Shown here in pieces: positions 32,737 to 50,893 of a stretch of DNA of 54,368 nucleotides (the first letter of the stretch is position 1; every line of letters begins with the position of its first letter). Source of the DNA: Spirochaetaceae bacterium (lineage in GTDB: Bacteria; Spirochaetota; Spirochaetia; B11-G9). A program made the translations under genes and the position numbers. The stretch lies in assembly GCA_015493635.1 (NCBI GenBank), contig WGCU01000055.1, forward strand, positions 1-54,368. The letters run 5' to 3'. The notes beneath the pieces were generated by a model that worked only from the letters and a program-made list of their open reading frames with translations, did no database searches and was not told the origin of the DNA.

Positions 32737-34212
32737 ATGAAACGAATATTTATGTGTGTGGTATTTTTTACTTCACTTATAGCTCTTACAGCTGAAAGTG
32801 TCGATAAAACAGAATTATTTAAGGTTAAGAAAGATTCCGTAGAATTCTTAAATTATGAAGGACCTCATACAAAATTTGAAACTGCTGCACAAATCAGGGG
32901 AATTGGCGGAAGTCTTGGAAAAGAACTTAAAAACGGCAATGAAGATGTCCGTTATTTTAATAAATACAGTATAATGCATATTATAGATAAAAAGGGGAAT
33001 GGTCTGCTTAATGCCGATATATTTTCCATAGAAAAGAATGCAGTTGTGGATCATATAGATAATATACGTAGAATCCTCAGCGGTTATCTTGAAACATTTT
33101 ACAAGTATCCTTCAGAAGATGCAAAAGTGATTGCTGAGTTTATTACATATTATAACGCGTATTACAGAAGAAATATTGATTACTTTAAAACGGTATATGC
33201 GGGGAAGGTGATAGCTGCTCTTGACCCAGATAAGGCTGGAATATCAACACGATACATGAATTGGCCGGGTAAAACCCAGATACTTATACCGTTATTACCG
33301 GAAAGCGGGAAGAAGGTTAATATTGATACGGTAAGCAGCAAGGAAGTTATTCAGGATCTACGTACAAAGCAAGATAAGGGTATAGAACCCCGTAAGGGAA
33401 TGGTAGAGGTAAAAGAGAAAGAGATTTCTGCTGAACAGAAGAAAATCGAAGAAGCAAAGAAAGCCCTCGAAGAGGAAAAAAAGTCTGTTGTAGAACAAAA
33501 GCAAGCAGCAGAAAAAGCAGCGGGGACTCCCGCCGGAGAAAAGACACTTGCTGAAACAACCCGGAAAGAAGCAGAAATAAAGCAGAAAGAGCAGAATATA
33601 AAAGCCCGGGAAACTGAGAATAATAACCGCCAGGCCTCTGTTCAGCAGGAGCGTGAACAGATTGCAAAGGATGAGAAACAGCTTCTGGAAAAGAAAAAAA
33701 CAACTGCTAAAAGTGGAACTGCCGTAGGCGAAACGGTAATTCCCTTTCTTCTTGTAAATGACAACGATCCTGATTTGATGGGCCGTTTTGTTCTTGCCAA
33801 TGATAAAACGGGAATAATAACGAAAAAATCTTCATTAAATACTGTCCGGGGAAGAACGTTTCTTTTAATTGATAGCTCTCTCTTCTTTATAGCAGGAATT
33901 GACAAGCCGCCAAAGGCGATCCGTTTGATGCGTATGAATAAAGATACGCTTGAAATAGAGCAGGAGGGGAGTGATGACATCTATGGTGAGTCAGTACTTA
34001 CTCTTAAGAATGGTTCACTTTACGCGGTAACCCGGAAAGAAGGAAAATGGTATGTGGGGCGTTTTAATACCGAACTTGAGTTACAGAGCCGGTCAAAAAC
34101 AGAAGTCCTTCCTGTTACTCCGTTGCCGTTTGATGGCGGAAAAGTATACGTGGAGTCAAAATTTGGCAGGATAAAGCCGCTAAAAGATGATACTCTGCAG
34201 CCTCTACCGTAG
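32737..34212 (+). CDS. P83/100 family exported protein
   Basis: 491 residues. A signal peptide (MKRIFMCVVFFTSLIALTAES) precedes an N-terminal domain with NADIFSIEKNAVVDHIDNIR, ILSGYLETFYKYP and FITYYNAYYRRN, which match the Borrelia P83/100 antigen family. Residues about 215-325 are a highly charged coiled coil rich in Lys, Glu, Gln and Ala. A C-terminal domain (about 330-491) looks like beta strands (FVLANDKTGIITKK). Members are known as abundant protoplasmic-cylinder-associated spirochaete antigens of unclear function. Its 3' end overlaps the convergent ParB-domain gene by 9 bp. This gene is the best taxonomic marker in the window. Confidence 0.88.
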   Translation: MKRIFMCVVFFTSLIALTAESVDKTELFKVKKDSVEFLNYEGPHTKFETAAQIRGIGGSLGKELKNGNEDVRYFNKYSIMHIIDKKGNGLLNADIFSIEKNAVVDHIDNIRRILSGYLETFYKYPSEDAKVIAEFITYYNAYYRRNIDYFKTVYAGKVIAALDPDKAGISTRYMNWPGKTQILIPLLPESGKKVNIDTVSSKEVIQDLRTKQDKGIEPRKGMVEVKEKEISAEQKKIEEAKKALEEEKKSVVEQKQAAEKAAGTPAGEKTLAETTRKEAEIKQKEQNIKARETENNNRQASVQQEREQIAKDEKQLLEKKKTTAKSGTAVGETVIPFLLVNDNDPDLMGRFVLANDKTGIITKKSSLNTVRGRTFLLIDSSLFFIAGIDKPPKAIRLMRMNKDTLEIEQEGSDDIYGESVLTLKNGSLYAVTRKEGKWYVGRFNTELELQSRSKTEVLPVTPLPFDGGKVYVESKFGRIKPLKDDTLQPLP

Positions 34213-39592: not shown

Positions 39593-40532
39593 TTTTCTTC
39601 TCCAGGTTCTTTTTCGTTTTCTGCCAGACGGCTAAATCATCGGGATAAGATAATTCGTTTGCAAGAGCCTCAAGTTTTTCCAGGCAGTTTAACAGTTCAG
39701 TGGGTAAAGCGAGAGATTCAAAAATAAGTGCATCTCTTTTAAAGGTATAATAGGCTTCTTCCAGAGCTCCTGTTTTCTGCTGTATGATCCCCTTTGCATA
39801 GAGATCCTGGGCAATACCGAAACTGTTTTCAATGAGTTTGTCAAGGTCAATCGCTTTATTTATATACTTTAACGCCTCGGGATACAGTGATTCCTTTGAA
39901 AAAAGTGATGCGAGAATATATGTATCGAGGGCTGCTTCCTTTATTTTATTTTTATTCTCATTTATTTTAAGAGCTTTGAGAAGACTTGTTTCTGCTTCTG
40001 AATAATTTCCAAGCCGTTTTTGTGCTACACCGATATTATGCAGCAGAACAGCAGCATCTTCACTCTTTTCAGGATCTTTAACGGATGTATATGCTTCGTT
40101 AAAAAGTGACAGAGCGGAAGCAAATTCTTTCCTGGCAAGAAATATCTCACCAGCATTATTTTTGCATCGAATAAGTAGATGAGGATCATCAAATACAACA
40201 GCAATTTCCATGGCTTTGTTATAATACTTTTCAGCGGAATCTATCTTCCCTGCTGCCAGATATGTTTTTCCGATTGAATTGTATGATTCAATAATCCCCT
40301 TGTCATTATCAACAAGAATGTTTTGTTTCAATGCCAGAAAAAAGAAATCCAGAGCCTGATTGTACTGGGCTTCGTCGTAATACCGGGAACCGAACGAAGC
40401 ATACTCGGCAGCTCTGTTTTTCTTTTCAACCCGTTCTCCCGGTTGTAACTTTGCAGTGGTGGAACAACCTGAAAGGAAGATAATGCTTGCCAGAATGATG
40501 AGAAAGAAAGGAAAAATTTTAGGTGTAATCAT
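39570..40532 (-). CDS. TPR-repeat lipoprotein
   Basis: 320 residues. The signal peptide ends in the lipobox FLSGC followed by STTAKLQPG. Residues about 40-285 are TPR units: AAEYASFGSRYYDEAQYNQA, IIESYNSIGKTYLAAGKIDS, NNAGEIFLARKEFASALSLF, LHNIGVAQKRLGNYSEAETS and SLYPEALKYINKAIDL. TPRs are protein-interaction scaffolds. It starts at the mlaD stop (TAATG), so it may be an accessory factor of the MCE system. Confidence 0.82.
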   Translation of the reverse strand: MITPKIFPFFLIILASIIFLSGCSTTAKLQPGERVEKKNRAAEYASFGSRYYDEAQYNQALDFFFLALKQNILVDNDKGIIESYNSIGKTYLAAGKIDSAEKYYNKAMEIAVVFDDPHLLIRCKNNAGEIFLARKEFASALSLFNEAYTSVKDPEKSEDAAVLLHNIGVAQKRLGNYSEAETSLLKALKINENKNKIKEAALDTYILASLFSKESLYPEALKYINKAIDLDKLIENSFGIAQDLYAKGIIQQKTGALEEAYYTFKRDALIFESLALPTELLNCLEKLEALANELSYPDDLAVWQKTKKNLEKKNGANPEK

Positions 40533-41587
40533 TAAAAATCCTCCTCTCTGTATCCTCTGAATGTTGTCGGCTGCTGTGCCTGTTCTGAAACACCACCTTT
40601 CAAGAGGGGGTTATTACGCAGGGCTTCAAGGACATCCTTCCCTTTTTGGAGCGCTTCTCTGCTTCCCTCAAGGAGTTCGGATATCTGCGGTCTGCTGTTA
40701 TTTATGTATCCTGTAAATGTTTTCAGTTCATCGGTAGTCATCTGTACACCGGAAAGGATCCCCGTTATCTGGTTATAAAGTTCGAAATTATCATTGAGAA
40801 GTTTTGAAATAGAACCTTTCGGATCCAATAGTTTTGTTACCAGTCCTTTTGTATCAGTCAGTCCTTCGGAAGTTGTTTTGAGATTTGCGGTTATACCCGA
40901 TGTGTTCCCGAGTATGGTGTCAATCTTTCCTGTTGCGTCGGCTAGAAGCGTATTAAATTGCCCTGTTAGTTTATTAATTTTGTCAACGATATCTCCAACA
41001 GGTCCTGTTGATGTTCCGTTAAATGTTTTATTAACCGTTACGAGGAGTTCGTTCAGTGATACAACAGCATCGTTGATATTGGTAAGAAGCGGTCCAATTT
41101 CGTTTACAATGTTCAGTATGGTATCGTTTGACGGCGGTTTATCTACCATTCCCCGTTTTACGAGATCTTTACCTCTTGTAAAATCCAGGGAAGGGATGAA
41201 AGACATGTCCGGTATAAGCTCTTTGGATACTCCCGGGTAGAAAAGCAATCCGCTTCCCCCTATCCCAATTGGGCTGACAGATAATTCAAGGACTGAATTC
41301 TTTCTTACTTTACTGTAATAAGTATCAAATATATGGAAATTAACTTCAACGGTATTGTCATCATTCAATTCTATTTTATCAACACTTCCTATTTTAAAAC
41401 CTTTCAGTTTCAGCGGCATACCCACACTTAATCCGGTACCGGAAAGAAAGCGGCTTGTAAAATGATAGTCCTTTGAAAACCATCGCTGGTTAATCCCCAT
41501 GAAAATGATGATAACGAGAATCATCAAAAGCGCGATGAGGATAAAAAAACCGACTATCTGCTCAGCAAAGCGTATATGAAACTTCAT
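40532..41587 (-). CDS. mlaD: MlaD-like MCE-domain lipid-transport protein
   Basis: 351 residues. An N-terminal membrane anchor (VGFFILIALLMILVIIIFMGI) leads into one MCE domain (about 38-120): FLSGTGLSVGMPLKLKGFKIGSVDKIEL and SVSPIGIGGSGLLFYPG. The rest (about 150-340) is helical and heptad-like, with NDAVVSLNELLVTVN and ITANLKTTSEGL, longer than E. coli MlaD (183) and closer to tube- or needle-forming MCE proteins. MlaD collects phospholipid between the inner-membrane MlaFE and the periplasm. It lies 34 bp after mlaF. Confidence 0.88.
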   Translation of the reverse strand: MKFHIRFAEQIVGFFILIALLMILVIIIFMGINQRWFSKDYHFTSRFLSGTGLSVGMPLKLKGFKIGSVDKIELNDDNTVEVNFHIFDTYYSKVRKNSVLELSVSPIGIGGSGLLFYPGVSKELIPDMSFIPSLDFTRGKDLVKRGMVDKPPSNDTILNIVNEIGPLLTNINDAVVSLNELLVTVNKTFNGTSTGPVGDIVDKINKLTGQFNTLLADATGKIDTILGNTSGITANLKTTSEGLTDTKGLVTKLLDPKGSISKLLNDNFELYNQITGILSGVQMTTDELKTFTGYINNSRPQISELLEGSREALQKGKDVLEALRNNPLLKGGVSEQAQQPTTFRGYREEDF

Positions 41588-41621
41588 GTTATCCTTATCC
41601 TATTTCATGTTTTTTATGCTG

Positions 41622-42377
41622 TCAAACAGAATTACTGTAATCCCGTGTAATTATGTCCTCAATTATTTTTACTGCCTCCGGTTCTTTACAGGTTAAAACA
41701 TCACTCATACTGCCTGTAAAGATTACTCGTCCGTCTTTCATAACTGCAGCAAAGTCAGTCAGCCGTTTTGTCAGAGAGATACTGGAAAAGTTTGCTATAA
41801 CGGTTTCACTGCTCTTATACATTGCTATTATCAGTTTCTGCATTTTAGCCAGAACTGAAGGATCCACAAGAATCAGCGGGTTGTCAAGGTAGATGAGATG
41901 CGGTGTTGTTACAAGAGCTCTTGCCAATGATACCATTTTACGTTCACCGTTAGACAGCTGTGCCGGCCGAAGATGTATACTGTCAGTGTAGCCGACTTCT
42001 TTCAGTATGGAAAGTATTTTCCTGTCTCGTTCATCCCTGGTTATATCGGGGTTATGTATTTGAAGCGGAAGGCTTAAATTTTCATATACGGATTTATTAG
42101 CCCATAGAGCAGCATCCTGAAAGACAAAGCTGCTTACCATCCGGAAATTCTGCAGCTGTCTTTTCGACATGGTAAGGAGATTTTTTCCATCAATGAGGAC
42201 TTTACCACTTGTAGGAGGAAAAAGGCCTGCTGCAACCTTTAAGAGAGTACTTTTACCGCATCCAGAGGGGCCAATAATAACTGACGTTTTACCTGCAGGA
42301 AAACTGATGGTTATATCGTTAAGTATTTTCCTGTTGTTCCGTATAAATGTTACATGCTCCAGCTGAACAGTATGCAT
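41622..42377 (-). CDS. mlaF: MlaF-like ABC ATPase with degenerate catalytic motifs
   Basis: 251 residues. Walker A GPSGCGKST (36-44) and Q-loop FVFQDAALWANKSVYEN are canonical, but several other motifs are not. The signature reads LSNGERKM (141-148). Walker B reads LIYLDNPLILVD, so the catalytic Glu is Asn166. The H-loop position reads VIANFSSIS with no His. It should bind ATP but hydrolyse it poorly, if at all. It sits between mlaE (9 bp away) and mlaD, so its family place is clear. A second, catalytic ATPase elsewhere, or an altered energising mode, is possible. Confidence 0.88.
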   Translation of the reverse strand: MHTVQLEHVTFIRNNRKILNDITISFPAGKTSVIIGPSGCGKSTLLKVAAGLFPPTSGKVLIDGKNLLTMSKRQLQNFRMVSSFVFQDAALWANKSVYENLSLPLQIHNPDITRDERDRKILSILKEVGYTDSIHLRPAQLSNGERKMVSLARALVTTPHLIYLDNPLILVDPSVLAKMQKLIIAMYKSSETVIANFSSISLTKRLTDFAAVMKDGRVIFTGSMSDVLTCKEPEAVKIIEDIITRDYSNSV

Positions 42378-42386
42378 CTTTCCTCC

Positions 42387-43166
42387 CTACCGGGTATAGT
42401 AAATCAATGTAATAACAGCATCCACCAGGATACAGTAAACGAATGATGCACCAACTGCCTTTATCACCATTTGGGGAACTTCAGTGGAGGATTGTTCCAC
42501 CTTGAAACCGTAGTATGTTGCTGAGAGAGATATAATGATACCGAATGCAAGGCTTTTAAGTGTTGAAGAGAGAATATCTTCCGGCCTTAAATAAGAAAGC
42601 AGTTTTCTGAAATAGTCAGAAGCCTGAACCGGTTCTATAAATTGAGTGATGAAAAAGGAACCTATAAGACCGAAGAAATTAAAATAAATATTAAGGAGCA
42701 GCAGCGAAACGGTAACACCGATAAAACGGGGGACGGCAAGGTAGGTTAACGGATCGATACCGCTGGCAATGTAGGCTTCTATCTCGTGGCTGACCACATT
42801 GTGTCCTATCTCTGTTGCTATTGCTGTTCCTGACCGAGCAATTATGATAAAGGCGCAGAGCATTGGTCCCAGTTCCCGTGTAATAATTGTTATGAGGATG
42901 GGAAACGTAAGCTCTCTTTGACCGAACTGCGGGAGAAGGCTTACTCCCTGGATAATGATTACGGCTCCCAGAGCCATGGCTATAAGAGCTATAATATTCA
43001 ACGTTTCAAAACCGGTAAATAAAATCTGCATGGTAAGCACTTTTTTGCCTGCCTGTTTCCCTTTAAAAAAGTGAATGGTTGCTTTAAATACCTTGAAAAA
43101 GAAGCCAAGTGCATACAGTTGACCCTTTATATAATCAATAAACCATCTGCCTAGTGTTCCCAGCAT
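42387..43166 (-). CDS. mlaE: MlaE-like lipid ABC transporter permease
   Basis: 259 residues with about five membrane helices. The MlaE family core is clear: ITRELGPMLCAFIIIARSGTAIATEIG, EIEAYIASGIDPLTYLAVPR, and GFKVEQSSTEVPQMVIKAVGASFVY near the C-terminus. It forms the inner-membrane dimer of the MCE complex. It heads a seven-gene minus-strand operon. The ATG follows AGAAGGA. Confidence 0.93.
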   Translation of the reverse strand: MLGTLGRWFIDYIKGQLYALGFFFKVFKATIHFFKGKQAGKKVLTMQILFTGFETLNIIALIAMALGAVIIIQGVSLLPQFGQRELTFPILITIITRELGPMLCAFIIIARSGTAIATEIGHNVVSHEIEAYIASGIDPLTYLAVPRFIGVTVSLLLLNIYFNFFGLIGSFFITQFIEPVQASDYFRKLLSYLRPEDILSSTLKSLAFGIIISLSATYYGFKVEQSSTEVPQMVIKAVGASFVYCILVDAVITLIYYTR

Positions 43167-43224: not shown

Positions 43225-43253
43225 TTGTTTTAATCAGACAAGTAGGTTAGAAT
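43225..43253 (+). promoter_or_regulatory. Promoter of the GNAT-KDSR-SPT operon
   Basis: TTGTTT (43225-43230), a 17-bp spacer and TAGAAT (43248-43253). The predicted start is near 43260, 19 nt before the start codon, with AAGGAG in between. Confidence 0.55.
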
Positions 43254-43278
43254 AGACGTTGAAAAAATAAGGAGCGTG

Positions 43279-44403
43279 GTGTTGAGTATCGAACTGAAAG
43301 AGGTAAAAACCCGCAAAGATTTAAAAAAGTTTGTTAAATTTCCGTTTACACTCTATAAAAACAATCAATATTGGGCTCCCCCCCTTATAAAGGATGAACT
43401 GAAGAACTTTGACTCACGGAAAAATCCTGCTTTTGAACATTGCAGGGCAAAATACTGGCTGGCGTATAAAGACGGGAAAATTGCCGGCCGCATTGCCGGG
43501 ATTATCAATACAAAAATTATTGAAAAATGGAAGGTTAAAAAAGCACGGTTCGGATGGATTGACTTTATTGATGATTTTGAGGTCTCCCGGGCTCTTGTAA
43601 ACGTTGTTGAGCAATGGGCAAAAGAACAGGGTATGGAATCCCTGGAGGGGCCCATGGGTTTTACTGATCTTGATGAAGAAGGGATGCTCATCGAGGGGTT
43701 TGAAGAGCAGGGTACCTATCCCATGATATATAATTATTCCTATTACCCCGTGCATATGGATAAACTCGGGTTTGTGAAAGAGGTTGACTGGCTGGAGTTT
43801 GAAGTAAAAGTCCCTGAAAAGATACCAGAAAAGGTTGTCCGGGTAAACAATCTTATTTTGAAGCGTTCCGGGTTGAGGCTCCTTGAAGCGAAAGGTGCAA
43901 AGGATTATAAACCCTACATCGAAGGTTTCTGGAAGTTAATTGATGAAGCATACGAAAATTTATTTGGAACTGTTCCTCTTACTCAAGCCCAGAAGGATTT
44001 CTATACAGACCAGTATTTTGATTTTATTGTCCCTGATTATTCAAAATTTATTATTGATGAAAAAAATGAGCTTGTAGCTGCCGGGATTGCTTTACCTTCG
44101 TTTACTGAAGCGCTGAGGAAAGCAAACGGAAGACTTTTCCCCTTCGGTTTTTTTTATATGCTTCATGCATTAAAACATCCACGGAAACTTGATTTTTATC
44201 TTATCGGTATTAAAAAGGAATACAGGGGAAGGGGGGTTATTTCCATCATGATGAATGATATCAATATAAATGCCATAAAAAATGGTATTGTAAGCTGTGA
44301 GACTTCCGGTGAGCTAGAAGAGAATAAAGCTGTCCAGGATATGTGGCGGCACTATGAGCACCGGCAGCATAAAAGGAGGAGATGTTTTATAAAAACATTG
44401 TAG
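43279..44403 (+). CDS. GNAT-type acyltransferase, candidate sphingoid-base N-acyltransferase
   Basis: 374 residues, no signal peptide. The N-terminal part (KTRKDLKKFVKFPFTLYKNN) and the C-terminal GNAT-like KLDFYLIGIKKEYRGRGVIS, with the acetyl-CoA-type RGRG loop, place it in a large GNAT group that I recall as common in Bacteroidetes, sometimes beside serine palmitoyltransferase (unchecked). Its position directly ahead of KDSR and SPT genes suggests that it N-acylates the long-chain base, i.e. a ceramide-synthase role. That is inference from context. GTGs at 43276 and 43279 and a TTG at 43282 are all in frame after AAGGAG; I use 43279. Confidence 0.75.
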   Translation: MLSIELKEVKTRKDLKKFVKFPFTLYKNNQYWAPPLIKDELKNFDSRKNPAFEHCRAKYWLAYKDGKIAGRIAGIINTKIIEKWKVKKARFGWIDFIDDFEVSRALVNVVEQWAKEQGMESLEGPMGFTDLDEEGMLIEGFEEQGTYPMIYNYSYYPVHMDKLGFVKEVDWLEFEVKVPEKIPEKVVRVNNLILKRSGLRLLEAKGAKDYKPYIEGFWKLIDEAYENLFGTVPLTQAQKDFYTDQYFDFIVPDYSKFIIDEKNELVAAGIALPSFTEALRKANGRLFPFGFFYMLHALKHPRKLDFYLIGIKKEYRGRGVISIMMNDININAIKNGIVSCETSGELEENKAVQDMWRHYEHRQHKRRRCFIKTL

Positions 44404-44404
44404 T

Positions 44405-45238
44405 ATGAATACATATAAAGGAAAACTTGTTTATATAACCGGAGGGTCCAGCGGTATCGGTTTTGCGATAGCTGAAGAGTTTTTGGCAAAAGGGGCGTCG
44501 GTGCTTATTATTGCCCGGAATACAGAGAAACTTCAAACCGCACAGAAGAAATTGGCAGAAAAGTTATCTTCCTACGAAAAAGGAAGGATCGAAATATGTT
44601 CTGTTGATATATCAAAGTTTGATGATGTATCATCAGTTCTCAAAGATAAACTCGAATCTGTCGGGATACCTGATATTCTCGTAAACGGTGCCGGAATGGC
44701 TTACCCCAACTATTTTGATCAAATTCCACATGATATATTTGTAAAAACCATTGAGATAAATCTTATCGGTACCTGGAATGTCATTTCGACAGTTGTTCCG
44801 GCAATGAAAACCAGGGGAGGGCATCTTGTTAATATATCTTCCATGGCCGGATTTGTCGGTACCTTCGGTTATGCTGCGTACAGTGCTTCGAAATTTGGAA
44901 TTATTGGGTTTTCCGAAGTACTGAAAGGAGAGTTAAAACCCTTCGGAATAAAGGTTTCAATTTTATGCCCTCCGGATACTGATACACCGCAGCTTGAAGA
45001 GGAAGACCGGACTAAACCGCCTGAAACAAGGGCTATTTCGGGCAATGTCAAGTTAATGAAACCTGAAAAAGTCGCTAAAATCCTTTTGAAGGATATGCAG
45101 AAGGGTAAATTTATGATATTACCGGGGTTGATGAATAAAATCACTTATGTACTCAAACGGCTTTTACCGGGGCTTGTTTTTATGATAATAGATAGTGATA
45201 TTAAAAAAGTACAAAAAAAGCTTAAGGAGCGAAAATGA
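44405..45238 (+). CDS. 3-ketodihydrosphingosine reductase (KDSR-like SDR)
   Basis: 277 residues, short-chain dehydrogenase. NADP-binding TGGSSGIG (12-19), NGAGM and the catalytic set Ser145/146, Tyr159 and Lys163 in YAAYSASKFG are all present. The C-terminal CPPDTDTP (189-196), EEEDRTKPPETRAIS and a hydrophobic tail closely follow eukaryotic KDSR/TSC10 (from memory, CPPNTDTP and KPLETR). It should reduce 3-ketodihydrosphingosine to sphinganine, the second step of eukaryotic-type sphingolipid synthesis. The ATG overlaps the stop of an 8-codon upstream ORF (ATGA). It overlaps the SPT start by 4 bp, so the two are coupled. Confidence 0.85.
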   Translation: MNTYKGKLVYITGGSSGIGFAIAEEFLAKGASVLIIARNTEKLQTAQKKLAEKLSSYEKGRIEICSVDISKFDDVSSVLKDKLESVGIPDILVNGAGMAYPNYFDQIPHDIFVKTIEINLIGTWNVISTVVPAMKTRGGHLVNISSMAGFVGTFGYAAYSASKFGIIGFSEVLKGELKPFGIKVSILCPPDTDTPQLEEEDRTKPPETRAISGNVKLMKPEKVAKILLKDMQKGKFMILPGLMNKITYVLKRLLPGLVFMIIDSDIKKVQKKLKERK

Positions 45239-46446
45239 GCAGCAAAGAAGGAATATTTAAAAAATGCTACGATTTTACAGAAGCTGATACAGCCCGTAGT
45301 CAGGGGGTTTATCCATTTTTTAAACCAATTGGAAAAAATGCGGGGACGAAAGTTCTTATAGAAGGCAGAGAACTTATTATGGCGGGTTCAAACAACTATC
45401 TCGGGCTTGCCGGAGATAAACGGATGATAGAAGCGAGCATTGAAGCAACACGTGACTATGGTACCAGCTGTTCCGGATCCCGTTTTATGAACGGTACGCT
45501 GACACTTCATGAGGAACTGGAAGCAAAACTTGCCGATTTTGTCGGTAAGGATGACGCATTGTGTTTTACAACCGGATATCAGACAAATCTGGGCGCTATC
45601 TCTACCATGGCAGGCCGGGGTGATCACATTATAACTGACAAGTTTAATCACGCGTCAATAATGGATGGAATCTTTCTGACCTCCGGTATCAACAAATCTG
45701 TTGAAGTACACCGGTACCGTCATAACAACTTTGAAGATCTTGAAAAGATCCTTTCATCTCTTCCTCTGGAAGCATCCAAACTTATTGTAACAGATGGTGT
45801 TTTTAGTATGGAAGGGGATATTGTCGATCTGCCGGCTATGAAAAAACTTGCGGAAAAATACAACGCGGGGCTCTATCTGGATGAAGCACATGCCATAGGA
45901 GTACTGGGAGCTACCGGCCGCGGTACAACAGAGCATTATGGCAACACCGACTATGCAGATTTGATAATGTGCACCTTTTCAAAAGCTTTTGGATCCATCG
46001 GAGGGTTTGTAGCAGGAGATGCGAAGGTTATTGACTATATAAAGCATTTTGCGCGGCCTTTGATATTCAGTGCAAGTATGCCTCCGGCTAATGTCGCGGC
46101 AGTAATGACAGCTCTTGATATCATAAAAGAAGAACCTGAAAGAATTAAACGTCTTCAGGAAATCGGGCGGAAAATGGTTAAGGGATTTACTGAACTCGGT
46201 TTTGATACCGGTACGTCGGTAACACCCATCGTTCCTCTTGTTATTGGAGATAACGAAAAGACCTTTCTATTCTGGAAAAACCTGTTTGACCGGGGAGTGT
46301 ACGTCAATCCGGTTATCAGTCCGGCAGTTCCTCCCAACAGAGCCATGATACGTACGAGTTACATGGCTACACATACCGATGAGGAACTGGATCAGATTCT
46401 TGAAATATCAGGTGAAGAGGGACGGAAACTGGGAATTATAGATTAA
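45235..46446 (+). CDS. Serine palmitoyltransferase-like alpha-oxoamine synthase
   Basis: 403 residues, a PLP fold-type I enzyme. GSNNYLGLAG, GTSCSGSRFMNGT, His139 in FNHASIMDG, DEAHA (216-220) and the PLP Lys250 in CTFSKAFGSIGG are seen. The TFSK-F box is characteristic of serine palmitoyltransferase rather than KBL or BioF (which have TLGKA). GVYPFFKPIG at the N-terminus also matches bacterial SPT. It condenses L-serine with a fatty acyl-CoA or acyl-ACP to 3-ketosphinganine, the committing step of sphingolipid synthesis. It overlaps KDSR by 4 bp (ATGA) and its stop overlaps that of the convergent acyltransferase. Confidence 0.9.
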   Translation: MSSKEGIFKKCYDFTEADTARSQGVYPFFKPIGKNAGTKVLIEGRELIMAGSNNYLGLAGDKRMIEASIEATRDYGTSCSGSRFMNGTLTLHEELEAKLADFVGKDDALCFTTGYQTNLGAISTMAGRGDHIITDKFNHASIMDGIFLTSGINKSVEVHRYRHNNFEDLEKILSSLPLEASKLIVTDGVFSMEGDIVDLPAMKKLAEKYNAGLYLDEAHAIGVLGATGRGTTEHYGNTDYADLIMCTFSKAFGSIGGFVAGDAKVIDYIKHFARPLIFSASMPPANVAAVMTALDIIKEEPERIKRLQEIGRKMVKGFTELGFDTGTSVTPIVPLVIGDNEKTFLFWKNLFDRGVYVNPVISPAVPPNRAMIRTSYMATHTDEELDQILEISGEEGRKLGIID

Positions 46447-47729
46447 GTATCCCTTTTATAGATAACTTCATGTTTTATGTTAAGTTCAGTTAATGTTTCC
46501 GTTACTGCATTTTCGAGGCGGAGATCATTAACTGAACTGCCAATATTCATTTCAAGTTTTCCTTTATAGCTGAAAAGAGCTGTATTTCTTCCGGGTACAG
46601 GAGAATTGCATGGTAGAATATCGAAGCTTTTAATATGTTCTTCCATTGAAGGGGGTAATGATATGTTTCCAAGATTAGTTATTACTCCAGAAAATAAACT
46701 TCTTGCAAAGATATGATAAAAAAGTTTAAACAGTGATGTCTTTAGTGGCCGAGGTAGAATTTTAAAGAAAAAATTGTTTTCTGCTCTGAGATTTCGTGCT
46801 ATCTGATGTTCTATTGATTTGGTATGTCTTTCGTGGCGGATATCATCTGCAATTATATGAACAATTTCTTGAAAACTACGAGGGGTGCCTTTGATGTAAA
46901 AAACGGGAGAATAAAGATAAGAGAAATTGCGCATTGTAACAGTTGGATAGTATCGGCGAAGATTTACAGGAATTTGTATGCGTATTGGACGATTTGGATT
47001 GGCGATTTGATGTTTGATATCATCAAAAAAAAGTTTCTGAATAGCTGCTGTATAAATAGCTGCAATATAAACATTAAGTGTAACATTCATATTTCTTGCA
47101 AGGGTTCTTATTTGTTTAAGATCCATAATAATTCTGGTTGAATAGTATTTTTCAACTGATATCATCTCTCCTGATGGTATGTATGCCGGTTTTTGTAGTT
47201 TCTGCGGAGGCCCTTTTCCTGTAAATGTTTGCCTGAATCCGCATTTCCACTCTCCCTCAACAATTTCATCATCAGGGTATTTAATAAAAGGAGATTCCTC
47301 CACAGAGATACCATTGAGATGGAGATAGCGTGCAGTAAGAGATAGAAGAAAAACAAGAGTACCATATCCGTCAGAGATTACATGTGATAATTCGAGTGCG
47401 ATTGTTGATCCTTGTGTTTTTACTCTGAAAGGGAAATGACCTTTTTCAAAATCAACATATCTGTTTGTCCATTGTGTATCTTGTTCGACTTCAGGTTTAT
47501 CGTCTGTATGTTCAAACACATACTTAAAAAAACGTTTACGAAGATAAACCTGATAATAGGGGAAACGTTGCATTGTATCATTCAAGGCTTGCTGCAGTAT
47601 TCTCTTATCAATTTTTCTATCAAGAGTAAGTGCAATTCTTGACATTGTTGTTTCTTTAAATGAGTTGATTGCGACAAAAATCTGTGCTGCATTGTCAACT
47701 TCAAAGGTGTGAGGGACTTTAACAGCCAT
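46443..47729 (-). CDS. Condensation/AATase-superfamily acyltransferase (PapA-like)
   Basis: 428 residues. The CoA-dependent acyltransferase/condensation fold is shown by HxxxDG in ELSHVISDGYG (His116, Asp120, Gly121) and by MNVTLNVYIAAIYTAAIQKL and IRIQIPVNLRRYYPT, typical of PapA5 and alcohol acetyltransferases. It is predicted to esterify an alcohol group with an acyl chain in the cytoplasm. It begins exactly at the stop of the MMPL exporter (TAATG), so the two are cotranslated. PapA plus MMPL is the mycobacterial arrangement for surface lipids; here the partner may be a sphingolipid. The substrate is not deduced from sequence. Confidence 0.8.
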   Translation of the reverse strand: MAVKVPHTFEVDNAAQIFVAINSFKETTMSRIALTLDRKIDKRILQQALNDTMQRFPYYQVYLRKRFFKYVFEHTDDKPEVEQDTQWTNRYVDFEKGHFPFRVKTQGSTIALELSHVISDGYGTLVFLLSLTARYLHLNGISVEESPFIKYPDDEIVEGEWKCGFRQTFTGKGPPQKLQKPAYIPSGEMISVEKYYSTRIIMDLKQIRTLARNMNVTLNVYIAAIYTAAIQKLFFDDIKHQIANPNRPIRIQIPVNLRRYYPTVTMRNFSYLYSPVFYIKGTPRSFQEIVHIIADDIRHERHTKSIEHQIARNLRAENNFFFKILPRPLKTSLFKLFYHIFARSLFSGVITNLGNISLPPSMEEHIKSFDILPCNSPVPGRNTALFSYKGKLEMNIGSSVNDLRLENAVTETLTELNIKHEVIYKRDT

Positions 47730-50038
47730 TATAGTATCTCCTTCGTGGAACGATTATGCCTGAATGTCAGCAGCGGAGGCAGCAGAAAGAGTGTGGCCAG
47801 CATCGCTGTTGACAGCGTAAAGACAATAAGTAAACCGAAATACCGGATTGGCTGAAACTGTGCCAGGGAGAGGAAAAGCAGTCCTGCTACGATTGATAGA
47901 GTAGTGAGAATTATTGGCCTTCCCGTGTGTATCAGGGTTTCATAAACAGCCTTAACCGGATCGTCAGGATAGCGGACAGCATTTATATGATGCTGAAGTA
48001 GAAAGTGTATTGAATCATCGACTCCGACTCCAATGGAAATACATGATACCATAATGGTTGTCATATCAAGCGGGATTCGAAAAAGAGCCATAAAGATAAG
48101 ACTGGTGAGAATGCCGGTTAAAAGAGGAATAAGGGCCAGTAAACTTTGATAGATTGAGCGGAACGCAATGAAAGCAATGATACTGATAGCAAGGAGTGCA
48201 CCGAGGGTAGAAACAAGAAAGTCTCTCCGCATCTGATGAGACAGATTAAGGAAGGCGAGACTCATGGCATTGAGATCCCAATTCATATTTTTGTCAGTAT
48301 TTTCGGAAAGAATAGTCTGAATCTGATTTTTCAGTACGATAGTATCGTGTTCATCTATGGGTCTGTCTTTATGTTTGTTGTATACTTTTATCGTTGTCGT
48401 TACCCGCGTAAAATCTTTATTTATGTATATATCACTCTGATCCCCCATGGCTGTGTGAAAAAGCCTGGCAACAAGCATATTCAAGCCCCTTGAAGAAAAG
48501 AAACCGTTTTCCCCTTTCATTACCCTTCCTGCGTAATCAAGATAGGAAGGAAATGAAAACACAAATGAAACATTATCGATAGCTTTTAATTTAGACTCAA
48601 TAGTGCGGATGTTTTTTAATGCATCGGCATTCAGGAAAAATCCCTTCTGGTTTTTTTTGGGTGTAAATGTAATACTCATCTCTTCAATACCGCCGATCTT
48701 TGACAGGATTTGCGCATTTTCCTGAATTACAGAGGAGTTCTCAGGAAAATATTTGGATGGACTCGTATTAAAAGCAATGTGAGGGTATACAAGAACGAAC
48801 GCGATAATTATTACCGCAATAACAGAAAGAGCCGTATACTTCTTCCGTATCACCCGTGGACCAAGAAAAGCGATGATTCGTGAGAGAAGATCAGAGGAAA
48901 TATCTTTTAATTTTTTTTCAACCGGTACCCGCTGAAGTGACAGGAAAGCGGGAAGTAATGTCAGGGACAAAAGTGCAGTAAAAAATATTCCGAAAGAAGT
49001 AGCTATGGCAAATTCTCTCGTCTGCTGAATAGTGGCAAGGAGCAGACTTAATAGTCCGACAATAGTAGTGAGGGATGCGAGAATAACGGTACCGCTGATA
49101 TTCGTAACGGATCTAATAATTGCCTCTTTCTTATCAAGATTCTTGTTCTCTCTCAAAAGTGTATAGTATGCATTAAGAACATGAATACTGTATGAACTTC
49201 CTAACGTTAAGACAAGCGGCGGCGTTACAATACTAACCATTGTCAGTTTGAATCCTACAAGAGCCATTCCCCCGAGGGCGAAAATGGTACCGCTCAGTAT
49301 AAGGAGGATAGGTATGAAAACAGCTCTCCGTGACCGAAATCCGAGATAGTAGCTAATCAGGATGGTAATGATAACGAGTACAAGAAGTTTCGCAAAATCT
49401 CTTGTAAGGAACCGTTCTGTTTCGGCTGAGAACGGAATTGTTCCTGTAATAGTGACATGCAGTGATTTCTTTAGAGGCGCTGTAAGTGTATGAACCGTAT
49501 CCATCATCTTAATATAATCCATACCTTTGCGGATTAGAAAGAACGTGAGGAGGACATCTCTTTTGTGGGAACTGATAAATCCCTGAGCAAAAGGATCTTT
49601 ATGGAGCCGTTCCTTGAAAATTTTAACTTCTTCCGGTGTCGCAGGAGCTTTCCCTCCGGGTGAAAGCGGTACGGGCATTAAGCGTGAACCTGTTTTGATG
49701 AGTATCGTTTGTGAAAAAGGGTTCACAAGTTTTCCTGTTGGTAGGGCTTTATCAATTTTGTTGAAGGTTTTTTGAAATAACTGAAGACCTCCTACCGTGA
49801 AAAGGTTCTTTCCGCTTACCATAATTGCAAGCCTGTCGTAGTCTGGAGATTGACCAGGATTAACACCTTTTAATTCAGACTGTACTGACGCCGGCAGCAG
49901 ACTCATAACATCGGCCTCAATTTTGAGATTCCGCATGGGATAAAGGAGTAAAAGGGTTATGGTTAAAGAAAGAAAGATAACAATCCGCGGATGCTCGGTA
50001 CTGAATTCAACAAGATGTTTTAGATGTATTTGCTTCAT
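47729..50038 (-). CDS. MMPL/RND-family lipid exporter
   Basis: 769 residues, about 12 membrane helices in two halves, each preceded by a periplasmic porter domain (about 40-220 and 415-590). GSSYSIHVLNAYYTLLRE and IGVGVDDSIHFLLQHH are the paired helix-4 motifs (G-x-DDSIH) of the RND superfamily. The single-chain MMPL/HpnN layout, without an adaptor gene nearby, suggests export of a hydrophobic lipid. The ATG follows AGGGA. It shares a stop-start overlap with the PapA-like gene and is divergent from plsC. Confidence 0.88.
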   Translation of the reverse strand: MKQIHLKHLVEFSTEHPRIVIFLSLTITLLLLYPMRNLKIEADVMSLLPASVQSELKGVNPGQSPDYDRLAIMVSGKNLFTVGGLQLFQKTFNKIDKALPTGKLVNPFSQTILIKTGSRLMPVPLSPGGKAPATPEEVKIFKERLHKDPFAQGFISSHKRDVLLTFFLIRKGMDYIKMMDTVHTLTAPLKKSLHVTITGTIPFSAETERFLTRDFAKLLVLVIITILISYYLGFRSRRAVFIPILLILSGTIFALGGMALVGFKLTMVSIVTPPLVLTLGSSYSIHVLNAYYTLLRENKNLDKKEAIIRSVTNISGTVILASLTTIVGLLSLLLATIQQTREFAIATSFGIFFTALLSLTLLPAFLSLQRVPVEKKLKDISSDLLSRIIAFLGPRVIRKKYTALSVIAVIIIAFVLVYPHIAFNTSPSKYFPENSSVIQENAQILSKIGGIEEMSITFTPKKNQKGFFLNADALKNIRTIESKLKAIDNVSFVFSFPSYLDYAGRVMKGENGFFSSRGLNMLVARLFHTAMGDQSDIYINKDFTRVTTTIKVYNKHKDRPIDEHDTIVLKNQIQTILSENTDKNMNWDLNAMSLAFLNLSHQMRRDFLVSTLGALLAISIIAFIAFRSIYQSLLALIPLLTGILTSLIFMALFRIPLDMTTIMVSCISIGVGVDDSIHFLLQHHINAVRYPDDPVKAVYETLIHTGRPIILTTLSIVAGLLFLSLAQFQPIRYFGLLIVFTLSTAMLATLFLLPPLLTFRHNRSTKEIL

Positions 50039-50079
50039 GATGGTCCCTACATAATAATTTAAGTAAAATAACTAATGCT

Positions 50080-50107
50080 ATTGTATCATATCTATTTTAA
50101 AAGTAAA
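50080..50107 (-). promoter_or_regulatory. Candidate promoter of the MMPL-PapA operon
   Basis: On the minus strand TTTACT (50107-50102), a 16-bp spacer and TACAAT (50085-50080), giving a leader of about 35 nt that contains AGGGA before the ATG at 50038. Confidence 0.4.
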
Positions 50108-50115
50108 ATATCTAT

Positions 50116-50121
50116 TATACT
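50116..50121 (+). promoter_or_regulatory. Possible -10 box for plsC
   Basis: TATACT within TATTATACTAAA, 16 bp before the chosen GTG. The -35 region is weak. It overlaps the divergent MMPL promoter region. Confidence 0.35.
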
Positions 50122-50137
50122 AAAAGACAAAGGGGAG

Positions 50138-50893
50138 GTGAATCGTATCCGAACTTTTCTTTTTGCTATTGTTTTTTGGGGACTTCTCGTCATATCTCCC
50201 GTTTTTCTCGTTAAGTATCTGGTTTTAAAACTGATTGACAGGGAAAAAGCGTATCTCTATGTTAACAGGCTTGCATCCGCCTGGGGAAGACTTATTATCA
50301 AGGCCGGCGGCGGATCTGTAGAGGTTTCAGGACTGGAAAACTTACCGCAGAATAACAGGATATGTTTTATTTCAAATCATCAGAGTTATATTGATATTCC
50401 GGTTATACTCGGATGGATACCAAAACCCATGGGAGCAGTCGGAAAACACAGCCTGAAGTTTGTACCGTTTTTTAATCTGTGGTTAAAACCGCTTCGTGTT
50501 ATTCTTATAAACAGGAAAAGTTTGAAACAGTCAAAAACGGTTATCAGAAGGGGGATAGAGGAAATTCGTTCAGGACATCCGGTTATAATAGCTCCTGAAG
50601 GTACGAGGAGCAGAAGTAATAGAATGGGCCGGTTTAAACCGGGAAGTTTTAAGCTTGCGACTGAATCAGGAGCTTCAATAGTCCCTATAACTGTCGATGG
50701 AGCATACAGGGGGCTGGAAGAGAAAGGGCGAATTTCTCCTGTCCATATAAAATTAACGGTCCATCCATCTCTTCCTCCTGAAGCGGTTCAAAAAATGACG
50801 ACGAAAGAGCTTGCAGAAAAGACGTGGGAAATCATCAACAGCGGTCTTGAAAAACCGAATAAACCTATTGATATCCAGGCTAGAGACCGATAA
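50138..50893 (+). CDS. plsC: 1-acylglycerol-3-phosphate acyltransferase (PlsC-like)
   Basis: 251 residues. One or two N-terminal membrane segments (TFLFAIVFWGLLVISPVFLV) are followed by the HX4D box in ISNHQSYIDIP, APEGTRSRSNRMGRFKPGS (EGTRS block) and VPITVDGAY. It would transfer an acyl chain to lysophosphatidate or another lipid hydroxyl at the inner membrane. The GTG at 50138 directly follows AAGGGGAG. An upstream in-frame ATG at 50075 lies before the putative -10 box and adds an atypical N-terminus, so I rejected it. The context suggests phospholipid or sphingolipid acylation. Confidence 0.85.
   Translation: MNRIRTFLFAIVFWGLLVISPVFLVKYLVLKLIDREKAYLYVNRLASAWGRLIIKAGGGSVEVSGLENLPQNNRICFISNHQSYIDIPVILGWIPKPMGAVGKHSLKFVPFFNLWLKPLRVILINRKSLKQSKTVIRRGIEEIRSGHPVIIAPEGTRSRSNRMGRFKPGSFKLATESGASIVPITVDGAYRGLEEKGRISPVHIKLTVHPSLPPEAVQKMTTKELAEKTWEIINSGLEKPNKPIDIQARDR

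Follow-up and report, generated by a model that had tools for sequence, protein, structure and literature searches.

A predicted dihydroceramide operon with a eukaryote-like KDSR, convergent with an acyltransferase-MMPL gene pair, in a spirochaete

Ceramide-type lipids are best known from animals and plants. This study concerns a five-gene locus that appears to encode the synthesis of such a lipid in an uncultured Spirochaetaceae bacterium, lying on contig WGCU01000055.1 (assembly GCA_015493635.1); the whole stretch analysed, 54,368 nt long, is referred to as the window, and all coordinates are positions in it. On the forward strand, a GNAT protein, candidate N-acyltransferase (43276..44403, 375 aa, GTG start), is followed by a KDSR-like short-chain dehydrogenase/reductase (SDR), candidate 3-ketosphinganine (or keto-ceramide) reductase (44405..45238, 277 aa), and by a serine palmitoyltransferase (SPT) of the Bacteroidota type (45235..46446, 403 aa). 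On the reverse strand, the window encodes an acyltransferase of the HxxxDG superfamily, resembling AATase and wax-ester synthases and a candidate O-acyltransferase (46443..47729, 428 aa), and a transporter of the MMPL/HAE3 family of resistance-nodulation-division (RND) proteins, a candidate lipid exporter (47729..50038, 769 aa). All five open reading frames (ORFs) are intact, with the motifs, places and strands given in an earlier note made from the DNA letters alone. That note described the first three genes as all coupled by overlaps, which is true of KDSR and SPT (4 nt) and not of GNAT and KDSR, separated by a 1-nt gap. The acyltransferase and MMPL genes have 1 nt in common, and the SPT and acyltransferase genes converge tail to tail, the ends with their stop codons overlapping by 4 nt. 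Hydrophobicity analysis gave 12 membrane segments for the MMPL protein and none for each of the other four, and promoter and terminator scans returned about as much as shuffled sequence.

The first NCBIfam model matched by the SPT is SerpalmtaseCFB, with 511 bits; the runner-up scores 382 and BioF 378, so that the margin exceeds 120 bits. Among PDB structures, the Sphingobacterium SPT leads with 404 bits and the next match reaches 276, the lower matches comprising Sphingomonas-type SPTs (at most 276), chains annotated as KBL (at most 270) and a cysteate C-fatty acyltransferase (200 bits). H139 and R373 align with His138 and Arg367 of the Sphingobacterium enzyme, the catalytic residues D216, H219 and K250 are kept as well, and the DEAH and TFSK (K250) motifs are present. 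In a tree of 98 proteins, with backbone support of 0.75-0.92, the window SPT falls among the SPTs of spirochaetes and of Bacteroidota/Sphingobacterium and away from BioF and KBL of E. coli; its paralogue in the same genome (contig C58) joins E. coli KBL, a grouping with full support. Clustering with BioF/KBL had been named beforehand as the outcome that would speak against an SPT; the tree gives the opposite placement, and models, structures and tree agree on the identity. They support a Bacteroidota-type SPT with predicted activity on L-serine and a long acyl thioester. An SPT 91% identical to it belongs to the public metagenome-assembled genome (MAG) QNBL01000063.1, 'Spirochaetes bacterium B11_G9' (G003 in the survey described below), which supports a spirochaete as the source of the window.

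The GNAT protein shows only a weak GNAT domain in Pfam, and the earlier note, which rightly called it GNAT-like, had missed its family. Over its full length it matches E. coli YghO, taken from a plasmid record in which it lies in the SPT region (28% over 381 aa, E=2e-43), and it also matches a GNAT from the SPT region of a Sphingomonas (26%, E=3e-33). An AlphaFold2 model has a tandem-GNAT fold at pLDDT 75. The gene yghO is listed as an orthologue of CC_1154, which is needed for dihydroceramide synthesis in Caulobacter (PMC9386255), and CC_1154 has been proposed to be the ceramide synthase CerS (PMC11324152). On sequence grounds, the window GNAT is a distant relative of this bCerS/YghO/CC_1154 family, and with that membership the predicted ceramide pathway becomes complete within the first three genes. 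GNATs of the same superfamily directly adjoin SPT in Endomicrobiaceae, Ignavibacteriales, Acidobacteria and one further spirochaete (G060), and a genome outside the class of the window (G140) has the same order, GNAT-KDSR-SPT.

Conservation was followed in a survey of relatives, in which G labels denote genomes, L loci, f families and g92 a genus, and co-occurrence was counted over 345 Spirochaetota genomes. A close GNAT is accompanied by an SPT orthologue in 17 of 19 genomes (3.0 expected), the genomic link between the two being physical linkage in f1 and f23 and co-occurrence elsewhere. Seven genomes with SPT (G014, G039, G057, G303, G320, G034 and G117) have no bCerS/YghO GNAT relative at E<=1e-5. 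Several of these carry KDSR beside SPT, and some are single-contig genomes.

The reductase matches adh_short in Pfam (E=2.7e-48) and carries the SDR motifs TGGSSGIG and YSASK together with the eukaryotic KDSR blocks PPDTDTP (position 189) and KPPETR (204). Its Pfam and NCBIfam matches included no KDSR model, and the 60 PDB matches listed included no KDSR chain. With a provisional human KDSR sequence as reference, identity was 43% over 234 residues, and another SDR of the same genome gave 28%; this comparison is a lead and not a test. The gene adjoins SPT in many families of the class, and 18 of the 26 genomes with a close copy also have SPT (4.1 expected).

A further indication of its role comes from sister genomes in which it is exchanged for a protein of the NAD-dependent epimerase type. 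G001, of family f1, keeps GNAT, SPT, acyltransferase and MMPL and has no KDSR orthologue anywhere in its genome, the best other SDR reaching 35%. Between its acyltransferase and SPT genes stands an epimerase gene (L036, 9502-10497) which begins one base past the end of the acyltransferase gene, itself overlapping the MMPL gene by 4 nt. In family f23, G029 and G401 carry an orthologue of this epimerase (47-50%) before GNAT and no KDSR in the locus, nor was KDSR found in the whole genome of G029; G414, of the same genus, has KDSR in its locus and no epimerase there. The epimerase is 28% identical (E=1e-38) to the protein in the CerR position of E. coli and is distant kin of epimerases adjoining SPT in other phyla. 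Since the swap takes place inside an otherwise conserved locus, the most economical interpretation is that both proteins, KDSR and the CerR-like one, carry out the same reduction, in line with the suggestion that bCerS and CerR may have been replaced by non-homologous proteins in some phyla (PMC11334938). The exchange, together with the motifs and the adjacency to SPT throughout the class, supports the earlier note's call to the extent of a KDSR-like SDR. A perfect mutual exclusivity of the two reductases was considered and set aside: it holds in f1 and f23 except in the window's own genome, which has two epimerase relatives of about 30% on contig C19. As a separate observation, four MAG loci labelled Clostridia, Candidatus Woodwardibium, Bacillales and Izimaplasma (L182, L186, L188 and L194) have an SPT gene followed immediately by that of a KDSR-like SDR, 24-31% identical to the window SDR, and may represent sphingolipid genes in monoderm lineages.

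The five proteins are 54-91% identical in other genera, with unchanged gene order and different flanks, a conservation far beyond chance. The contiguous locus is found in the window's genome (G000), G003 and G004 of f1 and in G414 of f23; in G006 (f1) the GNAT gene is cut by the contig end, in G005 and G007 the locus is split between contigs, and G001, G401 and G029 have the epimerase variant, the G029 acyltransferase being split by contig ends. The neighbourhood proposed in the earlier note is therefore conserved in two families, and because the flanking genes differ between copies, the cluster is kept together by selection or repeated transfer and not by general synteny. The enzyme families, the operon structure, this conservation and the exchange of KDSR for a CerR-like protein can all be read from the sequences themselves. 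Upstream of the locus in G004 and G005, a fatty acyl-AMP ligase was considered as AasR and a 97-aa ORF beside it as an acyl carrier protein (ACP); this was not counted because the short protein looks like a YhbY-like RNA-binding protein and because unrelated genes intervene.

The window acyltransferase alone returned nothing usable from Pfam, NCBIfam or PDB, and its AlphaFold2 model, built from a two-sequence alignment, reached pLDDT 33. Its motif is H116-V-I-S-D120-G121, and all of 30 relatives keep H116, D120 and G121. Single relatives match Pfam AATase (4.5e-7) and WS_DGAT (4e-4) and NCBIfam acyl_WS_DGAT (3.5e-8), and a profile of the relatives, searched against structures, matches nonribosomal peptide synthetase (NRPS) condensation domains (0.0013), VibH (0.019) and WSD (0.13). 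The protein had been called PapA-type; the HxxxDG motif on which such a label can draw is present, but neither a PapA match in Pfam, NCBIfam or PDB nor a DFGWG motif was found. Because of the profile and the matches of its relatives, it is placed in the HxxxDG superfamily nearer to alcohol and wax-ester acyltransferases than to PapA. This family, which lacks a Pfam model of its own, occurs in about one fifth of the sampled spirochaete genomes; genus g92 has many members at about 25% identity, and two relatives stand in tandem on G380 C7 and G359 C200 (L061, L062 and L224).

The transporter matches PF03176 (9.7e-29) and TIGR00921 HAE3 (8e-64). Its NCBIfam scores are 216 bits for HAE3, below the curated cut-off of 352 for TIGR00921, 125 for ActII/MMPL, 120 for HpnN and 18 for MmpL3; among PDB structures, HpnN comes first and MmpL4 far lower. 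A mycobacterial pattern, as the earlier note saw it, does not fit this ranking. The matches and the 12-helix layout support an RND transporter of the HAE3/HpnN type as a candidate lipid exporter. The pair of acyltransferase and MMPL genes is coupled in f1, in f23 and in part of f26.

The explanation preferred here, which we regard as likely, is that a dihydroceramide operon stands beside a convergent operon acting on its product. Its parts differ in strength. We consider it highly probable that the first three genes (43276-46446) form a complete dihydroceramide operon in which a eukaryote-like KDSR takes the place of CerR. That the acyltransferase and the MMPL protein perform ceramide-specific acylation and export is nearly an even matter, falling slightly on the doubtful side. 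More tentative by a shade is the full proposal of a new surface sphingolipid, in which dihydroceramide would be O-acylated by the HxxxDG enzyme and the HAE3/MMPL protein would be a dedicated exporter replacing the second Lpt set that has been proposed for Caulobacter. In this scheme, SPT would join serine (or alanine) and a fatty acyl thioester into a 3-keto long-chain base, the bCerS/YghO-like GNAT would add a second acyl chain to the amine of that base, and the eukaryote-like KDSR would reduce the ketone before or after the GNAT step. The HxxxDG enzyme might then transfer an acyl group to a hydroxyl, either on the ceramide or on a different lipid alcohol, and the transporter might carry the lipid from the inner membrane in the direction of the outer one. 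We infer the substrates, the order of steps and the whole of O-acylation and export.

Several observations weigh against this explanation. The SPT remains under the curated cut-off of its model (511 vs 640 bits), for which reason it is not called a member of the narrow Bacteroidota equivalog; the shortfall lowers that membership and not its function as SPT. The GNAT is only 26-28% identical to proven bCerS, the GNAT tree places it in a spirochaete subclade of its own, outside that of the proven members, and other spirochaetes hold more YghO-like copies; outside f1 and f23 it is mostly not linked to SPT. The acyltransferase family tracks SPT weakly across the phylum (21 of 68 genomes, 10.6 expected), and the Fisher p-values for all the co-occurrences ignore shared ancestry. 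In f26, the acyltransferase-MMPL pair stands away from SPT, and two genomes that do have the pair, G449 (79% complete) and G434 (90% complete), yielded no SPT orthologue.

The last of these points bear on the alternative that survives best, namely that the ceramide operon is real and the acyltransferase-MMPL pair serves another surface lipid, wax-ester-like or polyketide-like, which it merely adjoins. The pair lacks SPT linkage in G464, G449 and G434 of f26, in G452 the acyltransferase and MMPL genes are separated, many spirochaetes carry distant relatives of the acyltransferase without having SPT or at a distance from it, and in the window the pair would form a separate, convergent transcript. 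Nevertheless, the linkage is kept in two families despite changed flanks. In G001, the genes for MMPL, acyltransferase and CerR-like reductase follow closely on one another, which connects the pair with ceramide synthesis, and in G448 a 51% GNAT is close to a 34% MMPL, with SPT elsewhere in the genome. We regard a different lipid substrate as a serious possibility, without favouring it.

The SPT-like enzyme might instead use alanine, cysteate or lysine, the product then being a 1-deoxyceramide, a sulfonolipid or similar and not a ceramide. That the best structural match is a serine enzyme, at twice the bits of the cysteate C-fatty acyltransferase, makes this unlikely, as does the tree, where a far SPT-like clade of Marinilabilia, which we take to be of the sulfonolipid type, falls outside. 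Its appeal lies in the missed cut-off and in the range of amino acids, alanine being a known SPT substrate and further ones having been proposed (PMC11334938). Least credible is a ceramide N-acyltransferase role for the HxxxDG enzyme with the GNAT modifying something else, since condensation-like enzymes can form amides, the profile does match VibH and NRPS condensation domains, and G014, G039, G057 and G303 have SPT, KDSR and an HxxxDG relative without the GNAT family, but the GNAT is the YghO/bCerS relative that co-occurs with SPT, and the HxxxDG relatives co-occur with SPT only weakly and show no linkage to it beyond f1 and f23.

Returning to a dihydroceramide operon with an associated acyltransferase and exporter, the closest known systems are those of Caulobacter and E. 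coli, whose dihydroceramide genes are aasR, cerR, acpR, spt and cerS (CC_1165-1162 and CC_1154; yghO) (PMC9386255, PMC11324152). SPT, a GNAT of the YghO/CC_1154 family and a ketone reductase are clustered there as in the window. Unlike in those species, the window reductase is a KDSR-like SDR and not an epimerase-type CerR, the SPT is of the Bacteroidota type, and the cluster has no dedicated ACP or acyl-ACP synthetase; its neighbours are the HxxxDG acyltransferase and MMPL, whereas Caulobacter has second copies of LptC/F/G. The SPT subtype and an SDR-type ketone reduction are shared with Bacteroides thetaiotaomicron, where the 3-ketosphinganine reductase BT_0972 is counted among several 'partial homologs' of eukaryotic KDSR that came out of a genome-wide search (PMC9278070). 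Unlike BT_0972, the window SDR has the eukaryotic PPDTDTP and KPPETR blocks and is sited between the ceramide synthase and SPT genes. Eukaryotic KDSR/TSC10 has the same blocks; the window protein differs in being bacterial, encoded in an operon and free of an N-terminal membrane anchor (no hydrophobic segments). In the mycobacterial PapA-MmpL systems, as here, the gene of an HxxxDG acyltransferase accompanies that of a lipid transporter of the RND superfamily, but the locus departs from them in its acyltransferase, its HAE3-like transporter, its outer-membraned host and its presumed sphingolipid substrate. HAE3/HpnN hopanoid transporters are the best family and structural relatives of the window transporter, which, unlike HpnN, is linked to SPT, KDSR and ceramide synthase and not to hopanoid genes.

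Judged by its gene content, the locus is a new variant of predicted bacterial sphingolipid synthesis, combining a bCerS-like GNAT with a eukaryote-like KDSR; no paper on sphingolipid synthesis in Spirochaetota was found among the open-access papers searched. It offers a concrete case of replacement between KDSR and a CerR-like protein, together with a candidate transporter and a candidate tailoring enzyme tied to ceramide synthesis. The route by which bacterial sphingolipids pass from the inner to the outer membrane has been stated as not known (PMC11324152), and if the reading of acylation and export is true, the locus would give a first handle on the movement of ceramide-type lipids to the bacterial cell surface.

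Two further lipid-related features flank the locus. A lysophospholipid acyltransferase gene of the PlsC type (50075..50893, forward strand, PF01553, 8.6e-30) is divergent from MMPL; other members of the locus carry a phosphofructokinase-family gene at that place, and because the position is not conserved the gene was left out of the core, being probably accessory or unrelated. A PlsC-type gene also occurs in G448, near the 51% GNAT and the 34% MMPL (L282, contig C77, 1830-5939), the latter without one long readable ORF. Divergent from GNAT, genes of an MCE lipid ABC transporter of the MlaD-MlaF-MlaE type (40532..43166, reverse strand; PF02405, PF00005 and PF02470) adjoin the locus only in the nearest relative, G003, and are present in L033/L174 as well. 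Further away in the window, 32737-34212 encodes a homologue of Borrelia P83/100 (PF05262, 318 bits), which fits the spirochaete origin of the DNA.

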